From positions 4,256 through 16,946 of the forward strand of contig PLKU01000097.1 of the NCBI GenBank assembly GCA_003140705.1: a stretch of 12,691 nt of DNA, given 5' to 3'. Below are positions 1-12,355 of this stretch, one piece after another. Position 1 is the first letter of the stretch. Each line of letters opens with the position of its first letter. The translations under genes and the position numbers were made by a program. Below the pieces are notes generated by a model that saw only the letters and a program-made list of their open reading frames with translations, did no database searches and was not told the DNA's origin. The stretch comes from Acidobacteriaceae bacterium. Its GTDB lineage: Bacteria > Acidobacteriota > Terriglobia > Terriglobales > Acidobacteriaceae.

Positions 1-529
1 CAAGATTGTCGTAGTTGGAGACGCGCTCGGGAGAAGACTCCGAATCGTGGCAGCGGCTGCAGTATTTATCCGCGAGAATGGAACCGAGTCGCTGTTGATA
101 GCCAAGCGCCGTTTCGACGATGTCAAGGCTTACTGGCTTTGATTTGCCTGGTGTAATTGCGCTGATCTGGTATCTTCCCGCAACGGTGCCCAGAGTGACC
201 GAGGTCGTAGCCTGTCCACTGGAATCGGTGACGATCACAGCTGGGTCAAAGGCGACGCCCGTGGTGCCATGAAACTCAACCAGTGCGCCGGGAACAGCGG
301 TTCCCTGATCGTCATTCACCTGCACCACAAGCGGATCTTTCAACACAGTGCCGGTGGCGCCCACCTGGTGCCCGCCGCTCGATTCGACAATTGCGGTTCC
401 AACAGCAGTAGCTTTCAATCCAGCGGCCGATGGAGCGGGGCGCTTGCAGCCTGCCAACGCGGCGAGAGCGAGCAGCGCCCACCATCCGAATTCACGGAGC
501 GCCCTGCGTCCAGTGCTTCGCATTTTCAT
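1..529 (-). CDS. Lipoprotein with Ig-like domain and cytochrome c heme site (3' part cut off by window edge)
   Basis: The visible 176 residues start with a short charged region and a hydrophobic stretch ending in a lipobox (L25-A-G-C28), so the product is probably a lipid-anchored periplasmic or outer-membrane protein. Residues about 40-138 read as a bacterial Ig-like (Big-1/invasin-type) beta domain (pattern DDQGTAVPGALVEF, then TDSSGQATTSVTLGTVAGRY). A covalent heme-c site CSRCH follows at 157-161, and the frame stays open to the window edge, so the cytochrome domain continues outside. The ATG at 527-529 overlaps the stop of the upstream octaheme gene (ATGA), which implies translational coupling and membership in the Rieske/cytochrome b operon. 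A second in-frame ATG lies two codons on (521-523); the ribosome site is only a weak G-rich stretch. The likely role is electron acceptance from, or anchoring of, the multiheme subunit; this is inference. Confidence 0.85.
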   Translation of the reverse strand, partial: MKMRSTGRRALREFGWWALLALAALAGCKRPAPSAAGLKATAVGTAIVESSGGHQVGATGTVLKDPLVVQVNDDQGTAVPGALVEFHGTTGVAFDPAVIVTDSSGQATTSVTLGTVAGRYQISAITPGKSKPVSLDIVETALGYQQRLGSILADKYCSRCHDSESSPERVSNYDNL

Positions 530-2583
530 TTCTTCGCCCCCTGCCCGGCTGGGCCTTTCAGTGACATCAGGAATGCCGTCAGAGCGCGGGCGTCCTCATC
601 GCTCAGGTCCTGGTTCGGTTCAGTCGTGCCAGGCCGCAGCGCTTGTGGATTCCTGAGCCACGCGTAGACCCAGGCGGAAGTCAACCGCGAGCCAACCTGT
701 GTGAGCGTCGGTCCAATGTACCCCTTGTCGGTTTTGGAATCGACGATGTGGCACGACTGGCAGGCATACTTTGAATAAAACAATTGCCGCCCCCGCTCCA
801 CGGCTGCCGGTGGACTCGTGGCCGAAGGCGCAAGGTCAGCGTCGATCGACGGCGATTGATAGACGGTGAGGATGTAGTCTGTCAGTTCCTTGTTGTCACT
901 GTCGCTCAGGTTGAAGCGCGGCATGCGCCGAATGAGTGATGGTCGAAGCGTATTGGGGTTGTGCAGGAAGCTAATCAGCCATTGCCGCTGCACTGCACTT
1001 CCTTCCCATGTAAGATCGGGCGCCATGTCGCCGCCCTTGCCGTTGATCCGGTGGCAACTAGTACACGCTAATTCAGTCATCAGCTTGCCCGCCTGTCCGG
1101 CTGGTTGGTAATTCGTCTCTTGAATTGCAGCTACGCGCAGATTGTCCGGCATTGATCGGCCGCGATTTGTAAGCGCAAGCAGAGCGGTTGTCAAAGCGTC
1201 GGTCTGCGAGGCAGTCAGCGTGAACTGCGGCATTTTGACACTGACGCCGAAGGCTCGTGGCTGACGGATCTTGGCTGCGATGTAACTCGGCAGCGAGTGC
1301 TCCATGCCGGGCAGAAAGACAATCTGCGCCAGGGGCTTGCTCCCAATCGCGCTGAGCTCGGGCGCGAAGTTCTCGGGCTTCTGCACACCGTTCATTTCGT
1401 GGCATGCCGCGCATCCCAGCTCGACGATGAGCTTTCGCCCGTGCGCGATCTGCTTCGTGTTCGCCGTATCCAGATGAACGCCCGAGCCGTAGTCTGAATC
1501 CGTTTTGCTCTGCAAATACTCGGTCAGAGTCGCGATCTGTTGCGCTGTGAACCGGTAGTGAGGCATGGGTGTTGTTGCATCGTAGATACGAGGATTCTGG
1601 AGCCACGCCGTCAGCCACTCGGGCCTGACCTTGTTGCCAAGGCGAGTGAGTTCGGGACCTACATCGCCGCCCACCAAGTTACCTGCGGCATTCTGGACCG
1701 CGTGGCAAGAAGAGCAGAAGGATTCACCATAGAGACTCGGTCCTGCGGACGGATCAGCTTTTGCTGCCAGTTGAACGCTAGCCGCAGCAGTATCTCCCGC
1801 TTGCGGCGTGCTGCTGCTCACTAGGTACGCTGAAATGTCGCTTGCGTCGCCATCATTGAGCTTGTAATTGGGCATCGTCGTTGATGCCGCGTATGCCTGG
1901 GGATCCTTCAGCCAACTATAGATCCACTCGCGAGTCGTCTTGTCGGCGATATGTATAAGTGACGGGGGGCGATCCGTAGCCAGCACTTTGGTGCCGTCTG
2001 GCCGCGTGATGGCGTGGCAGTGAACGCACCCGTAGCGCGCCAGCATGGCTCTGCCAAGGTTCAGTTGGGGAGTTCCGGGCAAAGCATTCTGGTGGCATTG
2101 GCCGCAGCCGGATTCAATGTAGCGAGCAGGTAGGATCGGCTCTTCGCCAGCTCGGTCGCTGTGGTGCGCCTCCGCAACGGTCGTGGCTTGGCCCTGACCA
2201 CCATGACAAATGACGCAGCCGAATCCGTCAAGCGAGTGCGGAACAAACGGGTGCTTACGGAAGGGTTGCTGAGTCACGTCGCCAAGGCTTGCCTCATTCA
2301 ATCCCAGGTGGCACGTGGTGCAGCGGTCGACGACGTCAAGATCCGGCAGCCAAATCTGATGGATGCCCGGCTGGAATCGCCGGCGCAGGCTCACGGCATC
2401 TCCGCGATCATGGATGAGCGCCAAGTAGTGCCGCTGATAGCCGTGCCACTGGCTGAAATGTTCTTTGGCCGGTGCAATCGCAAGAGCCAACAGCAAACCG
2501 AGGCTGACAATGCCGAATGCCCGCACCGGATCGCCGAAGAGGGCCTGCCATGCAGAGGAAAGAATTTTTCTCATAAATTGCAC
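526..2583 (-). CDS. Membrane-anchored octaheme cytochrome c subunit of Rieske/cytochrome b complex
   Basis: 685 residues. A single N-terminal hydrophobic helix (about 21-39) anchors it, with the rest in the periplasm. Eight CxxCH heme sites are visible: 88-92, 123-127, 160-164, 186-190, 290-294, 391-395, 507-511 and 608-612. The first three form an N-terminal multiheme module (RFQPGIHQIWLPDL...VDRCTTCH, then FGCVICHGGQG, then ESGCGQCH). The last five sit in tandem monoheme class-I-like domains. Four of these carry a Met-Pro candidate axial ligand after the heme site (M237, M340, M451, M554); in the fifth the matching position is Glu655 (TTEPNQ). The start is GTG: a GGAGGAG at 2588-2594, inside the end of the preceding gene, has good spacing for GTG 2583 and is too far from the ATG at 2574. 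It directly abuts the cytochrome b C-terminal gene and probably replaces cytochrome c1/f as electron acceptor of the Rieske protein. Confidence 0.93.
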   Translation of the reverse strand: MQFMRKILSSAWQALFGDPVRAFGIVSLGLLLALAIAPAKEHFSQWHGYQRHYLALIHDRGDAVSLRRRFQPGIHQIWLPDLDVVDRCTTCHLGLNEASLGDVTQQPFRKHPFVPHSLDGFGCVICHGGQGQATTVAEAHHSDRAGEEPILPARYIESGCGQCHQNALPGTPQLNLGRAMLARYGCVHCHAITRPDGTKVLATDRPPSLIHIADKTTREWIYSWLKDPQAYAASTTMPNYKLNDGDASDISAYLVSSSTPQAGDTAAASVQLAAKADPSAGPSLYGESFCSSCHAVQNAAGNLVGGDVGPELTRLGNKVRPEWLTAWLQNPRIYDATTPMPHYRFTAQQIATLTEYLQSKTDSDYGSGVHLDTANTKQIAHGRKLIVELGCAACHEMNGVQKPENFAPELSAIGSKPLAQIVFLPGMEHSLPSYIAAKIRQPRAFGVSVKMPQFTLTASQTDALTTALLALTNRGRSMPDNLRVAAIQETNYQPAGQAGKLMTELACTSCHRINGKGGDMAPDLTWEGSAVQRQWLISFLHNPNTLRPSLIRRMPRFNLSDSDNKELTDYILTVYQSPSIDADLAPSATSPPAAVERGRQLFYSKYACQSCHIVDSKTDKGYIGPTLTQVGSRLTSAWVYAWLRNPQALRPGTTEPNQDLSDEDARALTAFLMSLKGPAGQGAKK

Positions 2584-3288
2584 TTAACTCCTCCATGGCA
2601 CAACCCAGGACCAACCCGGGCCGCGGAACCACGTGCCTACAGCGGTGAGCACAATGAGCTCGAAAAGAAACCAGGTCATAATCCAGTAAGCCAATGGTTT
2701 CCTGGCCAGATAGCGACGGAACCGTGAAGGCGAATCGGGCGTGCTGTTGGCGGCGACAATCATTGCTAAAGCCACAATCACGGTGGGCGGAACGGCGACG
2801 TAGACATGGAAGACCAAAAGAAAGGCCAGCATCCCGAGAGCTGCCAGATAGAACAACCGCAATCGCTTTGTCCGGTCTTTCAGAAAGAGGCCGTTGGCTT
2901 CGATGTTGATGTTGAAATACGGAATGACCACCAGGGCGATGATGAGCAGCGTAGGCACCAACACTCCCGCCACGACAGGCGGAAAGTAGTGCAACAACTC
3001 CTGCAGGCCGAGAAAGTACCACGGCGCTTTCGCAGGGTTCGGCGTGTGGGTGGGATCGGCGATGCCCTCAAGCGGAGAGTTGAGGAACAGCGAAACAAGA
3101 ACCAATGCGATGGCAAGCAGTTCGATGGCCAGGGCTGCGCGGAACAACACCGCAGGATAGGTCTGCACCTGGTCTTCCTGCGTGACACGAACCTGCGCCG
3201 AGGTGCGGCGCGTGACGAAGACAACGCGGGTGGGTGAGCGCCGCTGGTCTGAGTCGATGCTGGCGACGAAGTCCTTCGGATCGCTCAT
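2584..3288 (-). CDS. Cytochrome b C-terminal half (subunit IV-like) of Rieske/cytochrome b complex
   Basis: 234 residues, the quinol-oxidation (Qo) half of a split cytochrome b. A polar N-terminal tail of about 44 residues is followed by a hydrophobic helix (45-69), then the Qo loop [16 protein letters not shown], and then three or four more membrane helices. The end, GTWFRGPGW...PW, matches my memory of extended bacterial homologues; plant subunit IV is shorter, with three helices. The PEWY motif is APWY here (88-91), so the catalytic Glu is replaced by Pro. The start is the ATG at 3286-3288, preceded by an excellent AAAGGAGG (3293-3300); the open frame runs further upstream but only as antisense-free read-through over the cytochrome b gene. 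The start overlaps the stop of the preceding cytochrome b gene (ATGA). It sits in the membrane with the b6-like subunit and the Rieske protein, oxidising quinol. Confidence 0.93.
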
Positions 3289-4073
3289 TGAACCTCCTTT
3301 GCGTCGGGTTCGCTCTCGACGTCTGCTTGCGCTCGCGGGTCCGACTGCTGCACGTAGAGGCCGCCATCCTTGCGAATGCGCCAGAAATGGATTGCGATGA
3401 AGAGAATGGCCGCGAGCGGCAGTATTACGCAATGCAACACGTAAAAACGAAGCAGCGCATTTGCGTTTACCTGGTTGCCGCCCAGAAGCAGGAAGTGGAT
3501 CTTGCTGCCTACCAGCGGTACTGCGGATGAAAGATTAGAGCCGACGGTGATCGCCCAGTAGGCGAGTTGATCCCACGGAAGCAGGTAGCCGGTGTAGCTA
3601 AGCAAGAGAGTAATAAGCAACAGTACGATTCCGATGACCCAGTTGAACTCGCGCGGAGTTCGATACGCGCCACGATAGAAAACCTTGAACATGTGGGCAA
3701 AGACCAGGAAGACCATGAGCTGCGCCGACCAGCGGTGCAGATTCCTGAGGAAGAGTCCCGACGATACGACAAATTGCAGATCCTTCATATCCGCGTATGC
3801 CTGCGGCACGGACGGGTGATAGTAGAGCATGAGCAATATGCCGGTGATGACCAGGATCAGGAATGTTCCGAACGTCAGCGTTCCCAGGTACCACGTCGCG
3901 CTAAAACGCACCATGCGCTTGCGAACTTTGGTCGCGAACAAGTGAAGGAATATATTCTGCTGGATTGCCAGTGCGCGGTGCAGCGTGCTTTGACCCGTGC
4001 CGCTGCGGAAGACCGACCGCCACACCCGGCCCGCGCGAACTTGTTCGATGATCTGTTCGGCCTTCGTGGACAT
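3285..4073 (-). CDS. Cytochrome b6-like N-terminal half (diheme b) of Rieske/cytochrome b complex
   Basis: 262 residues from the preferred ATG at 4073. It carries the four helices of the b6 type. The heme ligand pairs are H113/H127 (13 residues between) and H214/H231-type spacing of 14 residues between in helix D (H214/H229), which is the b6 rather than the mitochondrial spacing. Other hallmarks are [27 protein letters not shown] and [10 protein letters not shown]...[11 protein letters not shown] gap-free match to chloroplast b6 around [12 protein letters not shown]...TG puts Tyr62 where b6 has the Cys that binds heme ci; the only Cys in the protein is in helix D, so covalent heme ci is not expected. 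Start choice: an ATG at 4079 overlaps the Rieske stop (ATGA), but the TAAGGA at 4081-4086 is 1 nt from it and 7 nt from the ATG at 4073. About 50 extra N-terminal residues precede helix A. Confidence 0.93.
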
Positions 4074-4075
4074 GC

Positions 4076-4567
4076 TCATATCCTTAGGTACTGGAGTGAG
4101 GGGATATCGGTAGAACGGTCGACCATGAGGTCGCCTTCATCGTCCACCCAGGTCTTAAGCCATGGCAAGGGCTTGGGCGCAGGGCCTTCAATCTTTTCTC
4201 CGGTACGTGTGAATTTGCTGCCGTGGCATGGGCACGCGATGATGCCCAGGTCCTGGTTCCATGCGGTCAAGCAACCCAGGTGAGTGCACACCGCACTGAG
4301 CGCAAAGTAGCCTTCTTCAGCGCGAACCAAATAGATTCCAGAATTCACATCCATGGTCACCGAGTTCACCGCGAAGTTCTCAGGCTTACCTACGTTGACG
4401 ATCGCCGAGGGTTCGTACAGGACATTGGGCGAGAGATATTCGTAGGAGAAGACGATCGTGCCCGCGGCTGCAATGCTCAGCGATCCAAGCCCGATCTTAG
4501 TGAAGAAGGCTCTTCTATCGAGTTCTGCCGGAAGTTTGTGCGTCAATTCAAGTGTTGCGTCGGGCAT
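4076..4567 (-). CDS. Rieske [2Fe-2S] iron-sulfur protein
   Basis: 163 residues. The N-terminus carries a twin-arginine-like motif (DRRAFFTK, 17-24) and one hydrophobic helix (about 25-42), which fits a Tat-inserted, membrane-anchored Rieske protein with its cluster domain in the periplasm. Box I is CTHLGC (94-99) and box II is CPCHGSKF (112-119): C94, H96, C112 and H115 are the cluster ligands, and C99/C114 form the disulfide. The Ser of GS is kept, but the following Tyr of high-potential Rieske proteins is Phe119. A Pro-rich GPAPKPLPW follows as expected. A C-terminal tail of about 12 residues (ending SLQYLRI) extends beyond the core. Three bases separate it from the upstream flavoprotein gene; GAGG precedes the ATG. 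It shuttles electrons from quinol at cytochrome b to the multiheme cytochrome c. Confidence 0.96.
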
Positions 4568-4570
4568 GTA

Positions 4571-6553
4571 TTACCTCTTCAGCGCGGCCGCCAGCGGCGG
4601 TCTGGAGCGCAATGGACGATCAATGGATTCGACAGAAATCAAGCCGGTTGGGTCCGCGGAAACAAGGTTGAAAGACTCCATGGTGATCGTGCCTGCTGGA
4701 CAGCGCTCCGCGCACAGTCCGCAACGGATGCATCGCGACTCATCTTTCAGCATGGCCGAACCGGCGATCACTCCAAGCTCGTCTGCCTTGATGTCGTCCA
4801 GTTCCACGCCAAGCAGACCACGGACCTCTGCGAGTTGTCCGACTGTTGATTCGTCGAAGGCGATGCGGTCGAGCGACACAAGTTCCAGGCAGTTCTCGGG
4901 GCAAACGTCAACGCACCCGCCGCAGAGAATGCATTGAGTGGCGTCCGCAGCGTTGCCTTCAAAGACGGTATTGACCCAACAGTGGAGGCAACGTTGCGCT
5001 TCGGCTACCGCGGCTTCCTCGTCGAAGCCGATCTCAACCTCAGTGACTCCGGTGCGGCGATTGAGCGGGAGCATTGGAATCGGCGGCCGCACCAGATCGA
5101 GGAGATTCAGCGGCATGCGATGGCGCTCAAGCACTTCCACTTCCACAATCGGGGCAGAGTGTTCTTTTCCGCGCAGGAACTCATCAATTCCCACCGCTGC
5201 CCGCTTGCCATCGGCGACGCTGTCAATAATGAGGCGCGGCCCAAACACGCAGTCGCCACCGGCGAAGACACCTGCGGCGGAAGTCATCAGCGTCTGAGGG
5301 TTCACGGCGATCAGCCCGCGCGGCGAGATGTCCACCCCATCTTCGGTTCCAAGAAACTGCAGATTGGGGGCCTGGCCAATGGCCATGATGATGGTGTCGC
5401 AATTGAGCCGCGTCTCGCTGTTCTCGTAGAAAGTGGGGCTGAACCGGCGGTTTGCATCGAAGACCGACTTGGTTTTCAGCACCTCTAGCGCTACGGCTCG
5501 CCCATTTTCGCCAATGATCTGCTTTGGGCCGAACCCAGGGTGGATGATGATCCCTTCTTCTTCCGCCTCTTCAATCTCCTCCAGTGCGGCAGGCATCTCC
5601 GCGCGATTTTCCAGGCACACCAAGTGCACCTCTTGCGCGCCAAGCCGTAATGCAGAGAGCGAAACGTCCATCATCTCGCGGGCAGCCACCGCATTCATGC
5701 TTCCTTGTGACGGCTCGAAGTTTTCAACACCACTAGCATGCTGGCGCAGGACCTCGCGTGCCGCGGACCTGGCCACATCCATGGCCACATTGCCTCCGCC
5801 AATGACGAGAACCTTTTTGCCGATGGTGAACCGGTAGCCCAGATTGACATTGAGCAGGAAATCGATGCCCTTGTAGACTCCGTCCAGATTCACGCCTGGA
5901 ATTGTGAGGTCGCGGCTTCGATGCGCGCCGACTGCGATCAAGACGGCATCAAACTCCCGCCGCAGATCGGCGATCGTGAAGTCGCGACCAGCCGCCTGGT
6001 TCAATTTCAGCGTGATATCGCCGGTGGCGAGAATCTCGCGAACCTGCGCTTCCACCACGTCGCGGGAAAGGCGATACTCGGGCAGGCCGAGGTAGAGCAT
6101 CCCACCTGGCACCTGCGATGCTTCAAATATGGTGACTGCGTATCCCATCAGTGCAAGATCATGGGCGGAAGAGAGTCCCACCGGCCCGGCCCCCACGACG
6201 GCAACGCGAAAAGGAAGTTTCGGCTGTGTGCGCCCGGCGTTTACATCGATGGGGTGCCGTGACTCTGGACCGTATCTCTCGGTCAGGAATCGCTTGAGCG
6301 CCCGGATTGCGATAGGTCTGTCGATCTCTCCGCGACGGCAAGCTGTCTCGCAGGGATGTGCGCAGACACGCCCGCAGATGCTGGCCATCGGATTGGGCTC
6401 GCGCGCGGTGCGATAAGCCTCTTCAAAATCGCCCTCTGCAATCAACGCAACATAGCGGCCTGCATTGGTGTGCGCGGGACAGGCCATCATGCAGGGAAAG
6501 TTGGTGTTCAGCCAATCCCGGTCAACCATTTTGTCGACATAGCGCTGCAGCAT
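4571..6553 (-). CDS. GltD-like FAD/NAD(P) oxidoreductase with N- and C-terminal [4Fe-4S] modules
   Basis: 660 residues, no signal peptide or membrane helix, so it should act on the cytoplasmic face. Domain order: an N-terminal dihydroprydimidine-dehydrogenase/GltD-type Fe-S domain (C21, C25, then C60-x3-C64-x3-C68-x3-C72); an FAD Rossmann motif GAGPVG (121-126) with PGGMLYLGLPEYRL; an NAD(P) Rossmann motif GGGN (252-255); a second FAD motif near GVFAGGDC; a CLHC pair (522, 525); and a two-cluster ferredoxin domain with C541-x2-C544-x2-C547-x3-C551 and C608-x2-C611-x2-C614-x3-C618. GltD-family proteins pass electrons between NAD(P)H, flavin and Fe-S centres. Here the gene starts a run of overlapping genes for a Rieske/cytochrome b complex, so it is probably a subunit or partner linking NAD(P) to the quinone pool; glutamate synthase small subunit is unlikely because no large subunit is nearby. 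GAGAGG lies 6 nt before the ATG. Confidence 0.9.
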   Translation of the reverse strand: MLQRYVDKMVDRDWLNTNFPCMMACPAHTNAGRYVALIAEGDFEEAYRTAREPNPMASICGRVCAHPCETACRRGEIDRPIAIRALKRFLTERYGPESRHPIDVNAGRTQPKLPFRVAVVGAGPVGLSSAHDLALMGYAVTIFEASQVPGGMLYLGLPEYRLSRDVVEAQVREILATGDITLKLNQAAGRDFTIADLRREFDAVLIAVGAHRSRDLTIPGVNLDGVYKGIDFLLNVNLGYRFTIGKKVLVIGGGNVAMDVARSAAREVLRQHASGVENFEPSQGSMNAVAAREMMDVSLSALRLGAQEVHLVCLENRAEMPAALEEIEEAEEEGIIIHPGFGPKQIIGENGRAVALEVLKTKSVFDANRRFSPTFYENSETRLNCDTIIMAIGQAPNLQFLGTEDGVDISPRGLIAVNPQTLMTSAAGVFAGGDCVFGPRLIIDSVADGKRAAVGIDEFLRGKEHSAPIVEVEVLERHRMPLNLLDLVRPPIPMLPLNRRTGVTEVEIGFDEEAAVAEAQRCLHCWVNTVFEGNAADATQCILCGGCVDVCPENCLELVSLDRIAFDESTVGQLAEVRGLLGVELDDIKADELGVIAGSAMLKDESRCIRCGLCAERCPAGTITMESFNLVSADPTGLISVESIDRPLRSRPPLAAALKR

Positions 6554-6619: not shown

Positions 6620-7198
6620 TTACTTGCTGAGTGTGAAGTCCGCCGTGGTATCTCCGGCAACTTTCACAGGATTGGATTTGTTCTTGGCGCCTTCGTGCCA
6701 AGCGGTTACGGTGTAGGCACCGTCCGGCACGTTGTCGATCTTGAAATCGCCGGACTTGTCCGTCACAGCGAAATAGGGCGTTGGCGAAACGATTACGTAG
6801 CCTGACATCTCCGGGTGGACGTTGCAAAGCAGAGGCACGATGCCCGGGTCGTCAAATTTGAAGGACTTCCTTTGACCCTGGGGCCACGTGCCCAGGTTGT
6901 GCCCAAGCTTCTTGTTGCCGCTGATGGAGGGCCAGAACACATTATGCGCAACGCTGTCGCTGTTGAGGAATTCGACGGTTGTGCCTTGTGCGACTGCGGT
7001 GATGTGCGGCACAAACATCAGGCCCTTCTGGTCGACGGTGATATGTTGTGTGGGAGCAGGGAAGGTTTTGCCGGCGACGCCCTCAACATATACCACGGAC
7101 TCACCGCTAACTCCGGATACCTTGCCGTGAATTGTGCCGGCAAAGGCCACTGTAGCCAGTGCCGTCATAAAGATTGTCACGAGTGCGATCTTTTTCAT
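6620..7198 (-). CDS. Secreted cupredoxin (amicyanin-like type-1 copper site) with carboxypeptidase-regulatory-like tail
   Basis: 192 residues with a clear signal peptide ending near AFA20. Residues about 50-138 form a cupredoxin domain: the upstream ligand is in SVAHNVFWP (H85) and the ligand loop is C125-N-V-H128-P-E-M131, the same C-x2-H-x2-M spacing as in amicyanin. Residues about 139-192 (PYFAVTDKSGDFKIDNVPDGAYTVTAWHEG) look like a carboxypeptidase-regulatory-like beta domain. A strong GAGGAG precedes the ATG. It lies 42 bp downstream of the cytochrome-porin gene and 66 bp upstream of the flavoprotein gene on the same strand. A periplasmic electron shuttle between the porin-cytochrome and the multiheme cytochrome or oxidases is plausible but inferred. 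An alternative is a copper-binding or sensory protein without an electron-transfer role. Confidence 0.88.
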   Translation of the reverse strand: MKKIALVTIFMTALATVAFAGTIHGKVSGVSGESVVYVEGVAGKTFPAPTQHITVDQKGLMFVPHITAVAQGTTVEFLNSDSVAHNVFWPSISGNKKLGHNLGTWPQGQRKSFKFDDPGIVPLLCNVHPEMSGYVIVSPTPYFAVTDKSGDFKIDNVPDGAYTVTAWHEGAKNKSNPVKVAGDTTADFTLSK

Positions 7199-7240: not shown

Positions 7241-8839
7241 CTAATAAACGAATTCCAGCCCAACAATCAGAGCGTTTGTTCGGAATGGCCCGGTGAGCGG
7301 CAGACCCGTTGCCGGGTTGTAGACAATCTGTTGTGGCCGGATCTGGTATTCGATCGAGGCCTTGATGTTGGCGTGGATAAGAAACTGCTCGCCAGGAGTA
7401 AAGCGGTTTCGCGTGGCTGAATACGGTGAGAAGAACGAAGAGGGTGGAGGCGCTGACGGATCGTACTCGATAAAGTTGACCCGATCGGCCGTCGATTTTA
7501 CCTGGTCCCATCGCATGATGGTCATCGCCCAGGGCAGGGCCAGGTAGTCCGCTTCAGCGAAGCCTCCGCTGAATGTTGCCGCCGCCGATGGCGTAAATCC
7601 GGTGATGCCCGCTGCTCCCGATGCGGTGACCGGCAAAAGATTGTGATCATGGGCTGCCACATACACGCCAAACACATTGAAGGTACGGTAGTTGAAGTTG
7701 ACGTCCCCGCCTATGCGGTAGAACGGCTCCCGCGCCGTGAGTACGGTTGGCGTTACGCCATCGGAAAGCACGCCGCTGAAGGGCTGCACTGTTCGCCCGT
7801 AGAAGTAGAAGGTGCCCAGAGCGAGATAGGTGTGATCGCGCGGGCCTGTCGTGCCTGCAGCTTGCACCTCATTGCGGCTCGCTGGGTCCTTTTCCAGGTT
7901 GAATCGGTAGACGAACCTGCCGTAGAGATCCTTGAAATTTGAGTCGGAAGAGTACGCAATGGCGTTCTGTGGCGCGACGTTCGGCGGGTTGCTGAAAACC
8001 CCGGTAGTGTTTTGGTCAAACACCGCAACGGAGTAGTGGTATCCCTGGTAAGCGTGGCCACCGCTGAATTCGACGCCATTGGCTGCATCCTCCAAGGCCA
8101 ATCCGTTATTGACATTCTGTGCCGGCGCCAACCCGTTCTGCACGCCGATGTTAGCTTGGCTGAATATGTCCCAGCCGCTGAGGTTCCAGGTGCGCGCCTG
8201 GCTGAAGGGAAGATCCAGCTCGAACTGCCCTGCGCGCAGATTCAGTGAGTCTTTGGGCAGCTTGAGGAAGCGGCTGAGGTCATTGAACTTCAGGTAGCCG
8301 TCGCCCAAAGCTCCGTTGACGTTTGCGCCCGCAACACTTATATCGTCATCCACCCACCACGAAATACCGGTGCCGAAGTTTCCAGCCGTGAAGATGCTGA
8401 AGTACCCAGGCTCAAAATCTGACTTGGGAATGAAGTTTCCAACTGTGCCTGCGGGTAACGCCAGGTTGAAGTTGTTGCGGTTGGCACTTACCTGCTGGAA
8501 GTAGGTGTTGTACCGCAATCCGATCGGTAGCAGACCGGGAATGGAACCGGGATACACCGTGTGCGGCCACAGCTCCGCCTGAGCCGGAGCGCCCAGGAGG
8601 ACGGGCGGCGTCTTCAGGAAAGATTCGTCATCTTTGGGAAACTTGAATCCCGCGTCTTTGAAGGCCTTGCCAAAATCGTTGAGCTTGGGAAAATCCGAGT
8701 GGCAGGTTGTGCAGGAGGTGCCATAGCGTCGTGAGAACGCGGGAATTGCGTCGGCGGAGGGCGGAAGCGAAAGGACTACCAGCGCGCACAAGATCGCCAA
8801 CACAGCGGCGAAGACGAAGGAGAACGATTTGCCGTTCAT
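7241..8839 (-). CDS. Fused monoheme cytochrome c / outer-membrane beta-barrel (Cyc2-like architecture)
   Basis: 532 residues. A signal peptide (hydrophobic 6-25, cleavage near ADA31) is followed at once by AFSRRYGTSCTTCHSDFPKLNDFGKAFKDAGF, with one heme site C43-TTC-H47. The remaining ~460 residues are rich in alternating hydrophobic strands, Gly, Asn and aromatic residues and contain no further heme site. The protein ends in ...GLEFVY, an aromatic C-terminus typical of outer-membrane barrels. A short N-terminal heme domain with the A-x5-G-x-x-C-x-x-C-H-x3-P-x-LN-x-FG pattern joined to a porin is the architecture of Cyc2 iron oxidases, but related porin-cytochromes of unknown role also have it, and I see nothing in the barrel that proves iron oxidation. 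It is first in the respiratory cluster; GAGG lies 7 nt before the ATG. An alternative is a porin with only a structural heme. Confidence 0.8.
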   Translation of the reverse strand: MNGKSFSFVFAAVLAILCALVVLSLPPSADAIPAFSRRYGTSCTTCHSDFPKLNDFGKAFKDAGFKFPKDDESFLKTPPVLLGAPAQAELWPHTVYPGSIPGLLPIGLRYNTYFQQVSANRNNFNLALPAGTVGNFIPKSDFEPGYFSIFTAGNFGTGISWWVDDDISVAGANVNGALGDGYLKFNDLSRFLKLPKDSLNLRAGQFELDLPFSQARTWNLSGWDIFSQANIGVQNGLAPAQNVNNGLALEDAANGVEFSGGHAYQGYHYSVAVFDQNTTGVFSNPPNVAPQNAIAYSSDSNFKDLYGRFVYRFNLEKDPASRNEVQAAGTTGPRDHTYLALGTFYFYGRTVQPFSGVLSDGVTPTVLTAREPFYRIGGDVNFNYRTFNVFGVYVAAHDHNLLPVTASGAAGITGFTPSAAATFSGGFAEADYLALPWAMTIMRWDQVKSTADRVNFIEYDPSAPPPSSFFSPYSATRNRFTPGEQFLIHANIKASIEYQIRPQQIVYNPATGLPLTGPFRTNALIVGLEFVY

Positions 8840-9930: not shown

Positions 9931-10338
9931 GTGGAGCCGAACTCATTCAAAGCAGATCACAAGTTGATTCAAGTTCTGGAGAAGAGGTCCCGGGCAGTTT
10001 CTTGCAGTGAACATTGCATTCTTTTCAAGCAGGGCGAGACCCCACGAGGCCTCTACATTCTCGAGAATGGAGAGGCTGTGCTCACTTTGGAATCTGCATC
10101 GGGCAGTCCAGTGATGTGCGTCCGTGCCGGAGCCGATTCGCTGCTTGGGCTGCCTGGAATTATCGGGAACGAACCGTACACGATGACTGCCATGGCTCGT
10201 AAGGGCTCTGAGGTCAGAGTTGTGACCCGCGCTGATTTTGAAGACGTCATTCGAATGGAGCCTTCGTTGGGTCTGCTTGTCCTGCAGGTTCTCGCTGCGG
10301 AGGTTCGATCTGTGCGGCAGGCACTTTCTGAAGTCTGA
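9931..10338 (+). CDS. Stand-alone cyclic-nucleotide-binding-fold protein (no HTH)
   Basis: 135 residues from a GTG start with a good AGAGGA 6 nt upstream. Residues about 12-120 form a Crp/Fnr-type effector beta-roll: FKQGETPRGLYILENGEAVLTL (32-53), then AGADSLLGLPGIIGNEPYTMTAMA (66-89), then a C-helix-like VLQVLAAEVRSVRQAL. The phosphate-binding cassette lacks the Gly-Glu and Arg that contact cAMP in Crp; GLPGIIGNEPYTMTA takes its place, so cAMP binding is doubtful. The protein stops just after the dimerisation-like helix, where a Crp/Fnr regulator would begin its DNA-binding domain; I looked in the other frames downstream and found no HTH-like sequence. It may be a truncated regulator or a genuine one-domain sensor acting by protein contact. 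Confidence 0.8.
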   Translation: MEPNSFKADHKLIQVLEKRSRAVSCSEHCILFKQGETPRGLYILENGEAVLTLESASGSPVMCVRAGADSLLGLPGIIGNEPYTMTAMARKGSEVRVVTRADFEDVIRMEPSLGLLVLQVLAAEVRSVRQALSEV

Positions 10339-10761: not shown

Positions 10762-11604
10762 ATGATGCACCCCAAGATGAAGCGCAAGTTCTCAGATTCT
10801 CGAACGAAGATCGCGGCACTGTTCCTGTTGCCGTGGGTAGCTCAACCCGGTTCGGCTGTCGCGGAAGCTCCGCAGGCAGCCGTTTCAGCTTTCAATTCTT
10901 ATATTGGTGTGGTCGAATCGCGGCTGGCCGAGCAGCACAGGGCGCAGGGTGGCTTCCTCGCCCCTTTGACCGCAGTTCAGCGAAGCGAGGCTCGGCTGCG
11001 CAGCGGGGAGCTGATCGTCGAACGGCTCTCGCCTGAAGATGGTCCAGACTTCTCTGGCGCTATGCTGCATGACTGGCGCGGCACTCTGTTTGTGCCTCGA
11101 GCCAAGGCTCAAGATCTTGAACGGCTGCTGATGGATTTCAACGCCTATCCAAAGCAGTTTTCCCCCCAGGTTCTTAAAGCGAAGGAACTCAGTCATGCCG
11201 ATGAAGGCGGCCTTCATCGGGTCCAGGCCATCATGCGAATACGCCAGGAGCACGTGATCACGGTGGTCATGGACACCACCTACGACATCTCGTTTGGACA
11301 ATTGGATCCGCAGCACGGGTACAGCATCTCGCGAAGCACACAGATTTCAGAGATTGACTCGCCCGGCACCAGCCAGGAGCACGCGCTCAACGCCAGCCAG
11401 GAGCACGGCTTCCTTTGGCGGCTCAATACCTACTGGAGCTGGGAAGAGCGCGACGGCGGACTCTACATCCAGATTGAGTCGGTCTCTCTGACCCGGTCGA
11501 TTCCGCGTGGACTTGGCTGGGCGGTTGGGCCGTTCGTCGAGAGCGTTCCGCGGGAATCGTTGCAATTTACGCTGCGCTCTGCATCGATCGCGTTGCGCAA
11601 ATGA
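10762..11604 (+). CDS. Secreted SRPBCC/START-like protein
   Basis: 280 residues from the first ATG. A signal peptide runs from the basic MKRK (6-9) through a hydrophobic stretch (17-27) to a cleavage site near AVA34. The mature protein has a helical start (SYIGVVESRLAEQHRAQGGFLAPL), then a helix-grip-type fold: LFVPRAKAQDLERLLMDFNAYPKQFSPQVLKAKEL, alternating strands, and a final WSWEERDGGLYIQIESVSLTRSIPRGLGWAVGPFVESVPRESLQFTLRSA, a pattern I associate with SRPBCC lipid-binding-like proteins. No catalytic residues are evident. GGGGAG at 10755-10760 favours the ATG at 10765 slightly over 10762. It is followed after 52 bp by the phosphatidyltransferase gene, so a periplasmic lipid-binding or lipid-handling role is plausible but unproven. 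Confidence 0.8.
   Translation: MMHPKMKRKFSDSRTKIAALFLLPWVAQPGSAVAEAPQAAVSAFNSYIGVVESRLAEQHRAQGGFLAPLTAVQRSEARLRSGELIVERLSPEDGPDFSGAMLHDWRGTLFVPRAKAQDLERLLMDFNAYPKQFSPQVLKAKELSHADEGGLHRVQAIMRIRQEHVITVVMDTTYDISFGQLDPQHGYSISRSTQISEIDSPGTSQEHALNASQEHGFLWRLNTYWSWEERDGGLYIQIESVSLTRSIPRGLGWAVGPFVESVPRESLQFTLRSASIALRK
11369..11407 (+). repeat. In-frame 24-bp-period duplication inside the SRPBCC gene
   Basis: CCAGCCAGGAGCACG occurs at 11369-11383 and again at 11393-11407, a period of exactly eight codons, giving SQEHALNA-SQEHGF in the protein. It looks like a short tandem duplication in a surface loop. Confidence 0.7.
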
Positions 11605-11656: not shown

Positions 11657-12355
11657 ATGAATACAATTTCAGCAACGAAGACGGATGAAGCGGCATTTCA
11701 GCCGGCACGCAGGGTCAACCAGGCGCTTACGGCTCAAATGGAGAAGCGCGCATTGCAGTGGATGGCCGAGCGTGCGCCAAAATGGCTGACAAGCGACCAA
11801 CTCACCCTGCTTGGACTCGGCGCGCAGGTGGGAGCCGGAATCTTTTACGCGCTATCTCGATACAACCGCTATGCACTGCTTCTGGTTATTTTGTGTCTTG
11901 CTCTCAACTGGCTTGGTGACAGCATGGATGGAACGCTGGCCCGGGTTCGCCGGCAACAGCGACCGCGCTATGGTTTCTACGTCGATCACATGGTGGACAT
12001 CTTTGGATCGGTTGCATTGATGTGCGGGCTCGGATTTTCTGGATTTCTGCACTGGCCGACGGCGATCGCAATGATGGTGGCCTTTCTCTTGCTTTCGAGC
12101 GAGAGCTACCTAGCCACCTATACGCTTTCGTGCTTTGAACTGTCCCAGGGCTTTTTCGGTCCCACGGAGATTCGCATTCTGTTGATCGCCGGCAACCTGG
12201 CGTTGCTGCGCAGTCCTTACTCAACGCTGTTCGGCCACAAGATGCTGTTGTTTGACCTGGGCGGAAGCATCGCGGCGGTGGGCATGTTTCTAATGGCCAT
12301 CCTCGTAACCATGCGGCATACGGCGGAGCTCTATCGCAGGGAGCCGCTTCCATGA
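11657..12355 (+). CDS. CDP-alcohol phosphatidyltransferase family membrane enzyme
   Basis: 232 residues, about six membrane helices after a polar N-terminus of about 45 residues. The family signature is complete: D88-x2-D91-G92-x2-A95-R96-x9-G106-x3-D110-x3-D114, with the aspartates binding the metals used to join a CDP-activated lipid to an alcohol acceptor. SDQLTLLGL before the first helix is also typical. The acceptor (inositol, glycerol-phosphate, serine or another alcohol) cannot be read from the sequence. GGGAG lies 6 nt before the ATG, and the stop overlaps the start of the next gene (ATGA). It probably makes or modifies an envelope phospholipid in the inner membrane. Confidence 0.92.
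   Translation: MNTISATKTDEAAFQPARRVNQALTAQMEKRALQWMAERAPKWLTSDQLTLLGLGAQVGAGIFYALSRYNRYALLLVILCLALNWLGDSMDGTLARVRRQQRPRYGFYVDHMVDIFGSVALMCGLGFSGFLHWPTAIAMMVAFLLLSSESYLATYTLSCFELSQGFFGPTEIRILLIAGNLALLRSPYSTLFGHKMLLFDLGGSIAAVGMFLMAILVTMRHTAELYRREPLP

Follow-up and report, generated by a model that had tools for sequence, protein, structure and literature searches.

A candidate menaquinol-splitting Rieske/cytochrome b complex with a NAD-linked flavoprotein subunit encoded in an Acidobacteriaceae operon

The window analyzed in this work, a stretch of 12,691 nucleotides from an Acidobacteriaceae genome, carries a gene cluster in which a NAD(P)/FAD oxidoreductase (FP) is encoded together with a Rieske protein, a split cytochrome b, and an octaheme c-type cytochrome. 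The best explanation for this gene set is a menaquinol-splitting Rieske/cytochrome b complex with FP as a NAD-linked subunit, to which we give a probability of about 0.55. The genes are, from upstream to downstream:

7241–8839, minus strand: Cyc2-like fused cytochrome-porin candidate, 532 aa; N-terminal CXXCH; motif AIPAFSRRYGTSCTTCHSDFPKL
6620–7198, minus strand: cupredoxin; PF00127 28.2 bits (cut-off 21.2), PF13620 35.6 bits (cut-off 32.3)
4571–6553, minus strand: FP, NAD(P)/FAD oxidoreductase, 660 aa; PF14691 (Fer4_20), PF07992 (Pyr_redox_2), PF00037 (Fer4)
4076–4567, minus strand: Rieske [2Fe-2S] protein; PF00355 41.1 bits (cut-off 20.3)
3285–4079, minus strand: cytochrome b, b6-type, N-terminal half; PF00033 155 bits
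2584–3288, minus strand: subunit IV-like cytochrome b C-terminal half, 234 aa; PF00032 23.7 bits (cut-off 20.7)
526–2583, minus strand: octaheme c-type cytochrome, 685 aa; eight CXXCH; PF00034 in four stretches; PF13442
1–529, minus strand, cut by the window end: Ig-like mono-heme cytochrome c lipoprotein; lipobox-like LAALAGC; one CXXCH

The six genes from FP to the lipoprotein, which the original prediction described as overlapping or abutting, are all present and tightly joined. FP and the Rieske gene are 3 bases apart; the Rieske and cytochrome b genes, and the cytochrome b and subunit IV genes, overlap by 4 bases each; subunit IV abuts octaheme c, which overlaps the lipoprotein gene by 4 bases. 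The interval 2584–6553, earlier assigned to all six, spans just four of them. The lipoprotein gene starts at 529 and ends 209 bases beyond the window (complete gene, L008:4047-4784). FP had also been taken as the first cistron, which is wrong: the cupredoxin gene lies 66 bases upstream on the same strand, preceded at 42 bases by the porin candidate. For subunit IV the most likely start is MSDPK (3288), picked from the 4-base overlap. A chance arrangement is excluded because the same gene order is kept in relatives. Promoter and terminator scans gave only chance-level results.

Sixteen Cys of FP are conserved, each in 124 or more of 136 homologues, leaving room for four [4Fe-4S] clusters, in agreement with the number of about four first suggested. 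The second Rossmann beta strand (beta 2) is closed by a NAD-type Glu, which points to a preference for NAD over NADP. The PRK12771 match of FP reaches 456 bits, below the cut-off of 516, and the closest PDB chains belong to entries named NfnA, molybdopterin oxidoreductase, formate dehydrogenase subunit, NfnI, and GltD.

The Rieske motif (CTHLGC / CPCHGSKF) retains the Ser and has Phe in place of Tyr, as in 9rk3, which is Kustd1480. This Ser, found in 91 of 92 acidobacterial Rieske proteins, is a potential-raising residue (PMC12954380). In cytochrome b the four heme-b His ligands are intact in 156–157 of 157 aligned rows, the window among them. The heme-cN Cys position, near the start of the first helix, is occupied by Tyr, and none of the 91 acidobacterial cytochromes b taken from beside FP has the Cys; its loss in Acidobacteriota removes one route to quinone at the inner side. 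Among FP-linked complexes of other groups, the anammox bacteria (35 of 36 rows), Chloroflexota (7/7), and part of the Nitrospirota (11/16) retain this Cys, and it is also missing in two acidobacterial loci devoid of FP. The idea that its loss always accompanies FP was rejected on account of these Cys-keeping lineages, and the acidobacterial loss may be a matter of lineage history. A proposed extra b-heme His ligand (His43 of Kuste4571; position 43 in the Kuenenia hertensis homologue) corresponds to His46 in the window. It is likewise kept in all 28 named cytochromes b without FP, and was for this reason discarded as a mark of NAD complexes.

Subunit IV has KAPWYF in place of PEWY, and its aligned C-terminal half differs from the anammox counterpart. 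The octaheme cytochrome has a hydrophobic N-terminal stretch, judged by eye; its families are those of mono-heme cytochrome c, the HAO-like family of anammox not being among them, and its QcrC-type match (76 bits) is below the cut-off of 200. The complete lipoprotein scores 34.1 bits for Big_1, just below the cut-off of 34.9, and 29.8 for Cytochrome_CBB3 (cut-off 27).

The cupredoxin has a type-1 copper motif (C-x2-H-x2-M) and, after it, a carboxypeptidase-regulatory-like domain. The porin candidate has one CXXCH near the N-terminus and a C-terminal Tyr, and gave no Pfam family match. Its AIPAFSRRY is two residues off the strict Cyc2 pattern (AXPXFAR[QK][TY] with CXXCH and PXL), with Ser for Ala and Arg for Gln/Lys; 18 of its 29 homologues carry the strict form. 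The AlphaFold2 model is unusable (mean pLDDT 33.9), and we infer a barrel, which in Cyc2 is a 16-stranded porin domain, from the motif, the length, and the C-terminal residue. In known systems this protein, the window's own partner, would be a point of electron entry, which counts against the direction of flow proposed below. The partner genes vary between relatives (cbb3, NosZ, NarG-like, HAO-like, Cyc2-like porin), and the recognized ones are mostly high-potential reductases, namely cbb3, NosZ, NarG-like, and HAO-like. COX1 had no match in the metagenome-assembled genome (MAG) of the window organism, which is 73% complete, and was found in 26/26 hand-picked relatives; the notion that the organism lacks a heme-copper oxidase was dropped on these grounds. 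Cytochrome bd subunit I occurs in 22 of 27 genomes (the 26 relatives and the MAG), the MAG included.

We propose that these proteins would form one inner-membrane complex, with FP on the cytoplasmic side and octaheme c on the periplasmic side. The outer quinone site would oxidize menaquinol and bifurcate its electrons. The first would reach a high-potential acceptor in the periplasm via the Rieske cluster and octaheme c, in the window most likely by way of the cupredoxin and the cytochrome lipoprotein to an oxidase; an alternative outlet would be the Cyc2-like porin, leading to iron or some other external couple. The second would move through the b hemes, the four Fe-S clusters, and FAD to NAD+, probably rather than to NADP+. 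The neighboring acceptor genes leave the direction of electron flow unfixed, and proximity in an operon differs from co-purification.

The cofactor chain is usable both ways, and the same complex could work in reverse, from NADH through FAD/Fe-S and the b hemes to menaquinone, or by confurcation with high-potential electrons to menaquinol. The first of these two routes is comparable to the one through ferredoxin/FNR and b6f that has been proposed for cyclic flow. The heme-cN Cys kept near the inner quinone site in some FP-linked relatives would suit such NADH-oxidizing use, as would an operon that begins with a Cyc2-like porin candidate, Cyc2 being the Fe(II) electron entry in known systems. 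We regard it as unlikely, given that this Cys is missing in 91/91 acidobacterial rows, that the recognized partners are mostly terminal reductases rather than donors, and that the MAG has complex I 49-kDa candidates, through which NADH:quinone electron transfer would be better coupled, a point raised for Kuenenia too (PMC12954380).

The attachment of FP to the complex is addressed by its linkage. The search for FP homologues in 297 Acidobacteriota genomes gave 130 match rows (hand count), of which 31 were left out and 99, including the window, were examined; the omitted ones cover only about the first 250 residues, and 29 of them lie in frames longer than 900 aa, glutamate-synthase-like by size. 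The predicted co-occurrence was borne out, since 93 of the 99 homologues are near a Rieske and/or cytochrome b gene rather than apart from them. The remaining six are two incomplete cases and four distant paralogues (33–34%; L191, L192, L193, and L196). L192 passes the 8-kb rule and was nevertheless counted as unlinked (93, not 94), its Rieske match of 72 bits lying 5.5 kb off, beside a molybdopterin enzyme and without cytochrome b. FP and cytochrome b have co-diversified: their distances are correlated (r 0.87 over 123 loci, a value that 0 of 999 permutations reached), and in the five two-complex genomes that were followed the copies cluster by layout in both the FP and the cytochrome b trees. 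FP adjoins the b gene in five phyla. As far as we searched, the presence of the complex in Acidobacteriota, Nitrospirota, Chloroflexota, and one Actinomycetota genome is new, as is its probable presence in non-anammox Planctomycetota. The same is true of the changing partners, the absence of the cN Cys in the 91 acidobacterial cytochromes b, and the co-diversification.

FP might still be a soluble or loosely attached enzyme with an unrelated substrate (for example ferredoxin-linked or a transhydrogenase-like Nfn relative) that is co-transcribed with the Rieske/b genes and stays apart from the complex, as the solved structures closest to it are those of bifurcating or GltD-type enzymes that do not belong to such complexes. 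Within the stretch read, the Rieske/b core is commonly found without FP (37 of 74 named loci), and Nitrospirae, deltaproteobacteria, and some Planctomycetota have Rieske/b/multiheme loci of this family that are FP-less. Furthermore, in 13 of the 14 loci with the cbb3 layout 4.1–5.4 kb separate FP from the b gene, and just 5 of 43 lower-scoring homologues in other phyla stand beside cytochrome b. The acidobacterial linkage, its extension to four further phyla, and the co-diversification nevertheless make this account improbable, as does the comigration of all Kuenenia complex subunits, which PMC12954380 reports from earlier work. A menaquinol:cytochrome c oxidoreductase of the ordinary Q-cycle type, in which FP has only a minor role in regulation or electron overflow, would explain the intact heme b and Rieske ligands but is very hard to reconcile with an Fe-S/FAD subunit that is large and, with its 16 conserved Cys, strongly conserved, with the lack of any cytochrome c1 or cytochrome f family over cut-off in the window, and with the five phyla in which FP adjoins the b gene.

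Returning to the menaquinol-splitting complex, the variety of partners beside relatives suggests a modular way of making NADH from the quinone pool. Tentatively, at slightly less than even odds, quinol-driven NAD+ reductases built on a Rieske/b core may form a modular family that is widespread, reaching at least five phyla, with the quinone-reducing half of the Q cycle rewired to NAD+ and a pluggable energy-yielding half. The sinks would be O2 (cbb3), N2O (NosZ), nitrate (NarG-like), nitrite (HAO-like), and, in the window, a Cyc2-like iron couple at the outer membrane. If true, this would be a general route from menaquinol to NADH without reversed complex I, the usual explanation for NADH supply in slow-growing soil and lithotrophic menaquinone bacteria; a Rieske/b complex passing one of the electrons to NAD+ would solve the problem in a second way, and on its own. 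Anammox bacteria, on which the earlier proposal is built, are difficult to manipulate. Acidobacteriota, some genera of which are culturable, have the same gene set, together with natural variants having different electron sinks, and the hypothesis is therefore testable by genetics, proteomics, and purification.

Among known systems, the flavoproteins GltD, NfnB, and PRK12771 share with FP the core of Fer4_20 and pyridine-nucleotide-disulphide oxidoreductase, whereas FP has an additional C-terminal dicluster and RCLxC pair, scores below the PRK12771 cut-off, and shares its operon with a membrane complex; no glutamate synthase or NfnA gene adjoins it in the window. The porin candidate resembles the Cyc2 iron oxidase (PMC8406198) in its single N-terminal CXXCH, the surrounding motif and spacing, the length, and the C-terminal aromatic residue, and differs in a motif two residues off and in its link to the Rieske/b-NAD gene set. 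The Geobacter sulfurreducens extHIJKLMNOPQS cluster also encodes a Rieske protein (ExtO), a cytochrome b (ExtP), a membrane protein (ExtQ), a lipoprotein cytochrome (ExtS), and a porin-like protein, but no NAD/FAD subunit is among the genes listed in the available part of PMC5877670. An assignment to the Ext system was rejected on this difference and on sub-threshold scores of cytochrome b for NF040969 ExtP (261.7 bits, cut-off 290) and of subunit IV for NF040970 ExtQ (50.9 bits, cut-off 150).

The four b-heme His and the Rieske cluster ligands are common to bc1, b6f, and the window, in which no cytochrome c1 or f family scored over cut-off. The claim of a distinct energy-coupling machine stands against bc1 and b6f, but the type had already been proposed for anammox (PMC12954380). 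The anammox parallel drawn in the original prediction is supported: anammox loci have the same gene set, and the top PDB matches of the window Rieske protein, 9rk4 and 9rk3, are Kuenenia structures (PMC12954380). Kuenenia has two such complexes, for which bifurcation to NAD(P)H is proposed and unproven (PMC12954380). Like Kuste4569-4574 and Kustd1480-1485, the window encodes a Rieske protein, a split b6-like cytochrome b (four-helix, by families and alignment) with subunit IV, a multiheme c (hexa- or octaheme in the anammox type, here an octaheme), and, alongside, a homologous NAD(P)/FAD subunit with room for four clusters, and has the His43 equivalent. The HAO-like octaheme (OCC) partner is particular to Kuste4569-4574 and had no match in the window locus. 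Compared with Kuenenia, the octaheme subunit is only distantly similar, the heme-cN Cys is absent, and subunit IV is without the C-terminal extension. At the end of FP beta 2 the window has the NAD-type Glu, against Arg-Arg in Kuenenia and Brocadia, the gene order is FP-Rieske-b instead of Rieske-FP-b, and a Cyc2-like porin candidate and a cupredoxin are encoded upstream.

The window belongs to contig C160 of an Acidobacteriota MAG that is 73% complete, and records named, for example, Terracidiphilus are among the close homologues of its flavoprotein. The operon, which continues into the larger surrounding stretch L008, comprises:

7241-8839, minus strand: 532-aa protein with one N-terminal CXXCH, a Cyc2-like porin candidate
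6620-7198, minus strand: cupredoxin
4571-6553, minus strand: flavoprotein, a 660-aa NAD/FAD/Fe-S protein
4076-4567, minus strand: Rieske protein
3285-4079, minus strand: cytochrome b
start most likely 3288, stop 2584, minus strand: subunit IV
526-2583, minus strand: octaheme cytochrome
from 529, end beyond the window, minus strand: Ig-cytochrome lipoprotein
L008:2732-4060, continuing the operon after the lipoprotein: secreted-looking 442-aa protein of no known family (10 reading frames found)
L008:1994-2662, continuing after the 442-aa protein: diheme cytochrome

The six-gene junctions are as originally predicted (a 3-base gap, three 4-base overlaps and one abutment). The flavoprotein gene is not the first cistron, as had been proposed, since the genes for the 532-aa protein and the cupredoxin stand upstream on the same strand. 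The plus strand encodes a cyclic-nucleotide-binding domain protein (9931-10338), a protein without Pfam family (10762-11604) and a CDP-alcohol phosphatidyltransferase (11657-12355), and none of the three has a visible link to the operon.

A search of 297 Acidobacteriota genomes found flavoprotein matches at 1e-60 in 94. The match rows numbered 130 by hand count; 31 short ones, nearly all in glutamate-synthase-sized frames, were excluded, and the remaining 99 loci were examined with flanking sequence of up to about 8 kb, shorter at contig ends. A same-strand Rieske and/or cytochrome b match lies within 8 kb in 94/99 loci, and both in 91/99; with L192 counted as unlinked, the figure is 93/99. 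In its acidobacterial relatives the flavoprotein thus seldom stands apart from the Rieske/b genes, and the originally predicted coupling withstands this comparison. The unlinked L191, L192, L193 and L196 (33-34% identity, 441-468 bits) are paralogues; L187 meets a contig end, and at L185 the stretch read stops inside cbb3 subunit I, short of the expected Rieske/b position. Gene labels in the loci come from profiles grown on the window proteins and single-sequence searches, with family checks on representatives and mechanically assigned starts, and many of the genomes compared are MAGs.

In other phyla, samples of 118, 201 and 199 genomes gave matches at 1e-120 in 31, 45 and 40, and the best 30 loci of each were analysed. 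Among these, flavoproteins scoring at least 600 have, within 1.5-kb flanks, cytochrome b in 18/24 and Rieske in 19/24 Nitrospirota loci, both in 17/18 Planctomycetota loci, and cytochrome b in 5/5 Chloroflexota loci; at lower scores cytochrome b is rarely linked (Chloroflexota 3/25, Nitrospirota 0/8, Planctomycetota 2/10), the Nitrospirota counts including one gene of one genome twice (L217 and L225). In four of the five Chloroflexota loci read further, the gene after subunit IV encodes a divergent Rieske protein; L313, L314, L316 and L317 show the order flavoprotein-b-IV-Rieske-cytochrome, with divergent Rieske proteins of 69-119 bits. The eight Planctomycetota loci read further probably stem from non-anammox bacteria, because NarG-like or other molybdoenzyme genes occur in seven and an HAO-like gene in none. 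One Actinomycetota locus carries Rieske, cytochrome b and an incomplete flavoprotein.

Distance matrices of flavoprotein and cytochrome b correlate at r 0.87 over 123 loci (0/999 permutations as high). In quick trees of 98 rows, the cbb3 and NosZ layouts, named after the enzyme beside the core genes, are each split off by a single branch whichever of the two proteins is used (support 92 and 93; 100 and 100); the window layout requires four changes on either tree and the Nar layout five and four. In the two-complex genomes G121, G265, G257, G005 and G243 each copy clusters, on either tree, with loci of its own layout rather than with the second copy of its genome. This agreement indicates that the flavoprotein travels with its own Rieske/b partner. 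Locus L060, from a genome of the window's genus (G171), holds another complex type with hexaheme c and a distant porin, suggesting exchange or loss of complexes between closely related genomes.

Across Acidobacteriota, as judged from gene content, the same core is joined to differing enzymes. With a layout assigned from a partner gene anywhere in the stretch, the 136 flavoprotein-bearing loci (acidobacterial, plus those from a scan with a Kuenenia Rieske, many of them anammox) comprise 27 plus 2 of the window layout, 20 cbb3, 20 Nar, 14 NosZ, 32 HAO-like and 21 with none recognised:

L077, L079, L080, L083, L084, L086-L089, L091-L094 and others: interleaved cbb3 genes
L073, L076, L081, L082, L085, L095, L096, L178-L184: Sec-type NosZ clusters including NAD-linked Rieske/b genes
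L068, L097, L098, L186, L189, L190, L194, L195, L198-L205, L207, L208, L210: NarG-like gene after the complex genes, mostly with NarH

In the cbb3 layout, genes for CcoN, CcoO, CcoG and a copper ATPase are interleaved with the Rieske/b-NAD genes; representatives clearly pass the COX1 and FixO Pfam cut-offs and score 361 bits against TIGR00780, below its cut-off of 583. NosZ representatives reach 882 bits (cut-off 625) and NosD 400 (cut-off 300); these clusters carry pentaheme c, and in L096 cytochrome b and subunit IV are fused. The NarG-like molybdoenzymes, accompanied by NarH, score 1166 bits for DMSO_red_II in L097 (cut-off 985) and 332 in L068, where the protein begins RRNFLQ; they are possible periplasmic nitrate reductases or nitrite oxidoreductases. 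As acceptors, O2 and N2O would give a larger energy yield than nitrite.

In a first set of 61 loci, a Cyc2-like gene lies within 1.1 kb in 26 and a cupredoxin within 1 kb in 28. In the window layout, then, the NAD-linked Rieske/b genes come together with those for a copper protein and a Cyc2-like protein. The Cyc2 signature, AXPXFAR[QK][TY] followed by CXXCH and PXL in the available text of PMC8406198, is strict in 18 of the 29 homologues in flavoprotein loci and relaxed in three, the window included; seven deviate in some other way but retain the heme motif, which is missing from one truncated homologue. The C-terminal residue is Phe, Trp or Tyr in 27/29. Six score only 134-151 bits, three of them about 5 kb from the flavoprotein on its other side, and look like a second subfamily. 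Beyond the operon end, L008:750-1763 (plus strand, opposite to the operon) encodes a 10-CXXCH multiheme cytochrome that we read as DmsE-like; taken with the porin, this is a hint of an electron conduit through the outer membrane. Electrons might flow either outward, with acid-soil Fe(III) as one conceivable acceptor, or inward from Fe(II). Inward electrons could not be lifted to NAD+ by the complex alone and would first have to enter the quinone pool via another complex. Complex I 49-kDa candidates are present in the window MAG, and heme-copper oxidases in 26/27 genomes (relatives and window MAG), the exception being the window MAG.

Sixteen flavoprotein Cys, enough for four cubanes, are kept in at least 124/136 homologues. 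The second Rossmann strand ends in Glu in 100/136 rows and in Arg in 30/136, Acidobacteriota having mostly Glu (window VCLE) whereas Kuenenia and Brocadia have Arg (VYRR); Scalindua copies have Glu. An Arg pair at this position is read as NADP-specific, and all five solved relatives compared, one named as NADP-linked, possess it. Since Glu replaces this pair, NAD would be the likelier substrate of the window flavoprotein. The proposed extra-b-heme His is kept in flavoprotein-linked cytochromes b, and equally in rows without flavoprotein. The Cys for heme cN, next to the inner quinone site, is absent from 91/91 acidobacterial cytochromes b beside a flavoprotein and from two without one; it is present in 35/36 linked and 27/28 flavoprotein-less rows of the Kuenenia-Rieske scan, 11/16 Nitrospirota, 7/7 Chloroflexota and 3/19 rows of the Planctomycetota survey.

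The sequences themselves show gene set, order, ligands, linkage, co-diversification and partner swaps. A dedicated Rieske/b-NAD complex is likely (probability about 0.85); physical assembly of its subunits, a shared cofactor path, NAD specificity, the use of menaquinone and the direction of electron flow are inferred. Forward bifurcation by this complex is slightly favoured. The potentials in the part of PMC12954380 available (menaquinone about -70 mV, NAD(P) -320 mV, nitrite +380 mV) leave energetic room for it. Two difficulties of bifurcation are named there, inner-side menaquinone reduction and the cN potential, and a complex without cN would be spared part of them.

Complexes of this kind are described for anammox bacteria in the accessible portions of PMC12954380, PMC8862662 and PMC12485887; among the open-licence PMC full texts consulted, none was seen to report this complex from Acidobacteriota or its partner swaps. 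In the PDB the window Rieske matches 9rk4 best (90 bits) and 9rk3 next (73 bits), entries that PMC12954380 identifies as the Kuenenia proteins Kuste4569 and Kustd1480; b6f proteins rank behind them. A scan with a stretch of Kuste4569 gave 74 loci. The flavoprotein is present in 37, all with Rieske within 1 kb and 32 with an HAO-like octaheme protein; it is absent from the stretch read in the other 37, some of these stretches being cut by contig ends. The core without flavoprotein occurs in Nitrospirae, deltaproteobacteria and part of Planctomycetota, some with an adjoining molybdopterin enzyme, and genome G300 holds both forms (L136, L145). At L150, L154, L158, L165 and L168-L170, in records labelled Nitrospirae, Thermodesulfovibrio and Deferribacteres, that enzyme has about 784 aa and a Rieske_3 (3Fe-4S) domain, and is arsenite-oxidase-like with a score below that family's cut-off. 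For the Kuenenia complexes, the same portion of PMC12954380 places the Rieske potentials at +303 and +335 mV, presents AlphaFold3 models that contain an extra b heme besides four Fe-S clusters, and favours bifurcation to NAD(P)H, an idea first put forward by others. The anammox gene order is Rieske-flavoprotein-b-IV-multiheme-OCC, whereas that of the window is flavoprotein-Rieske-b-IV-octaheme c.
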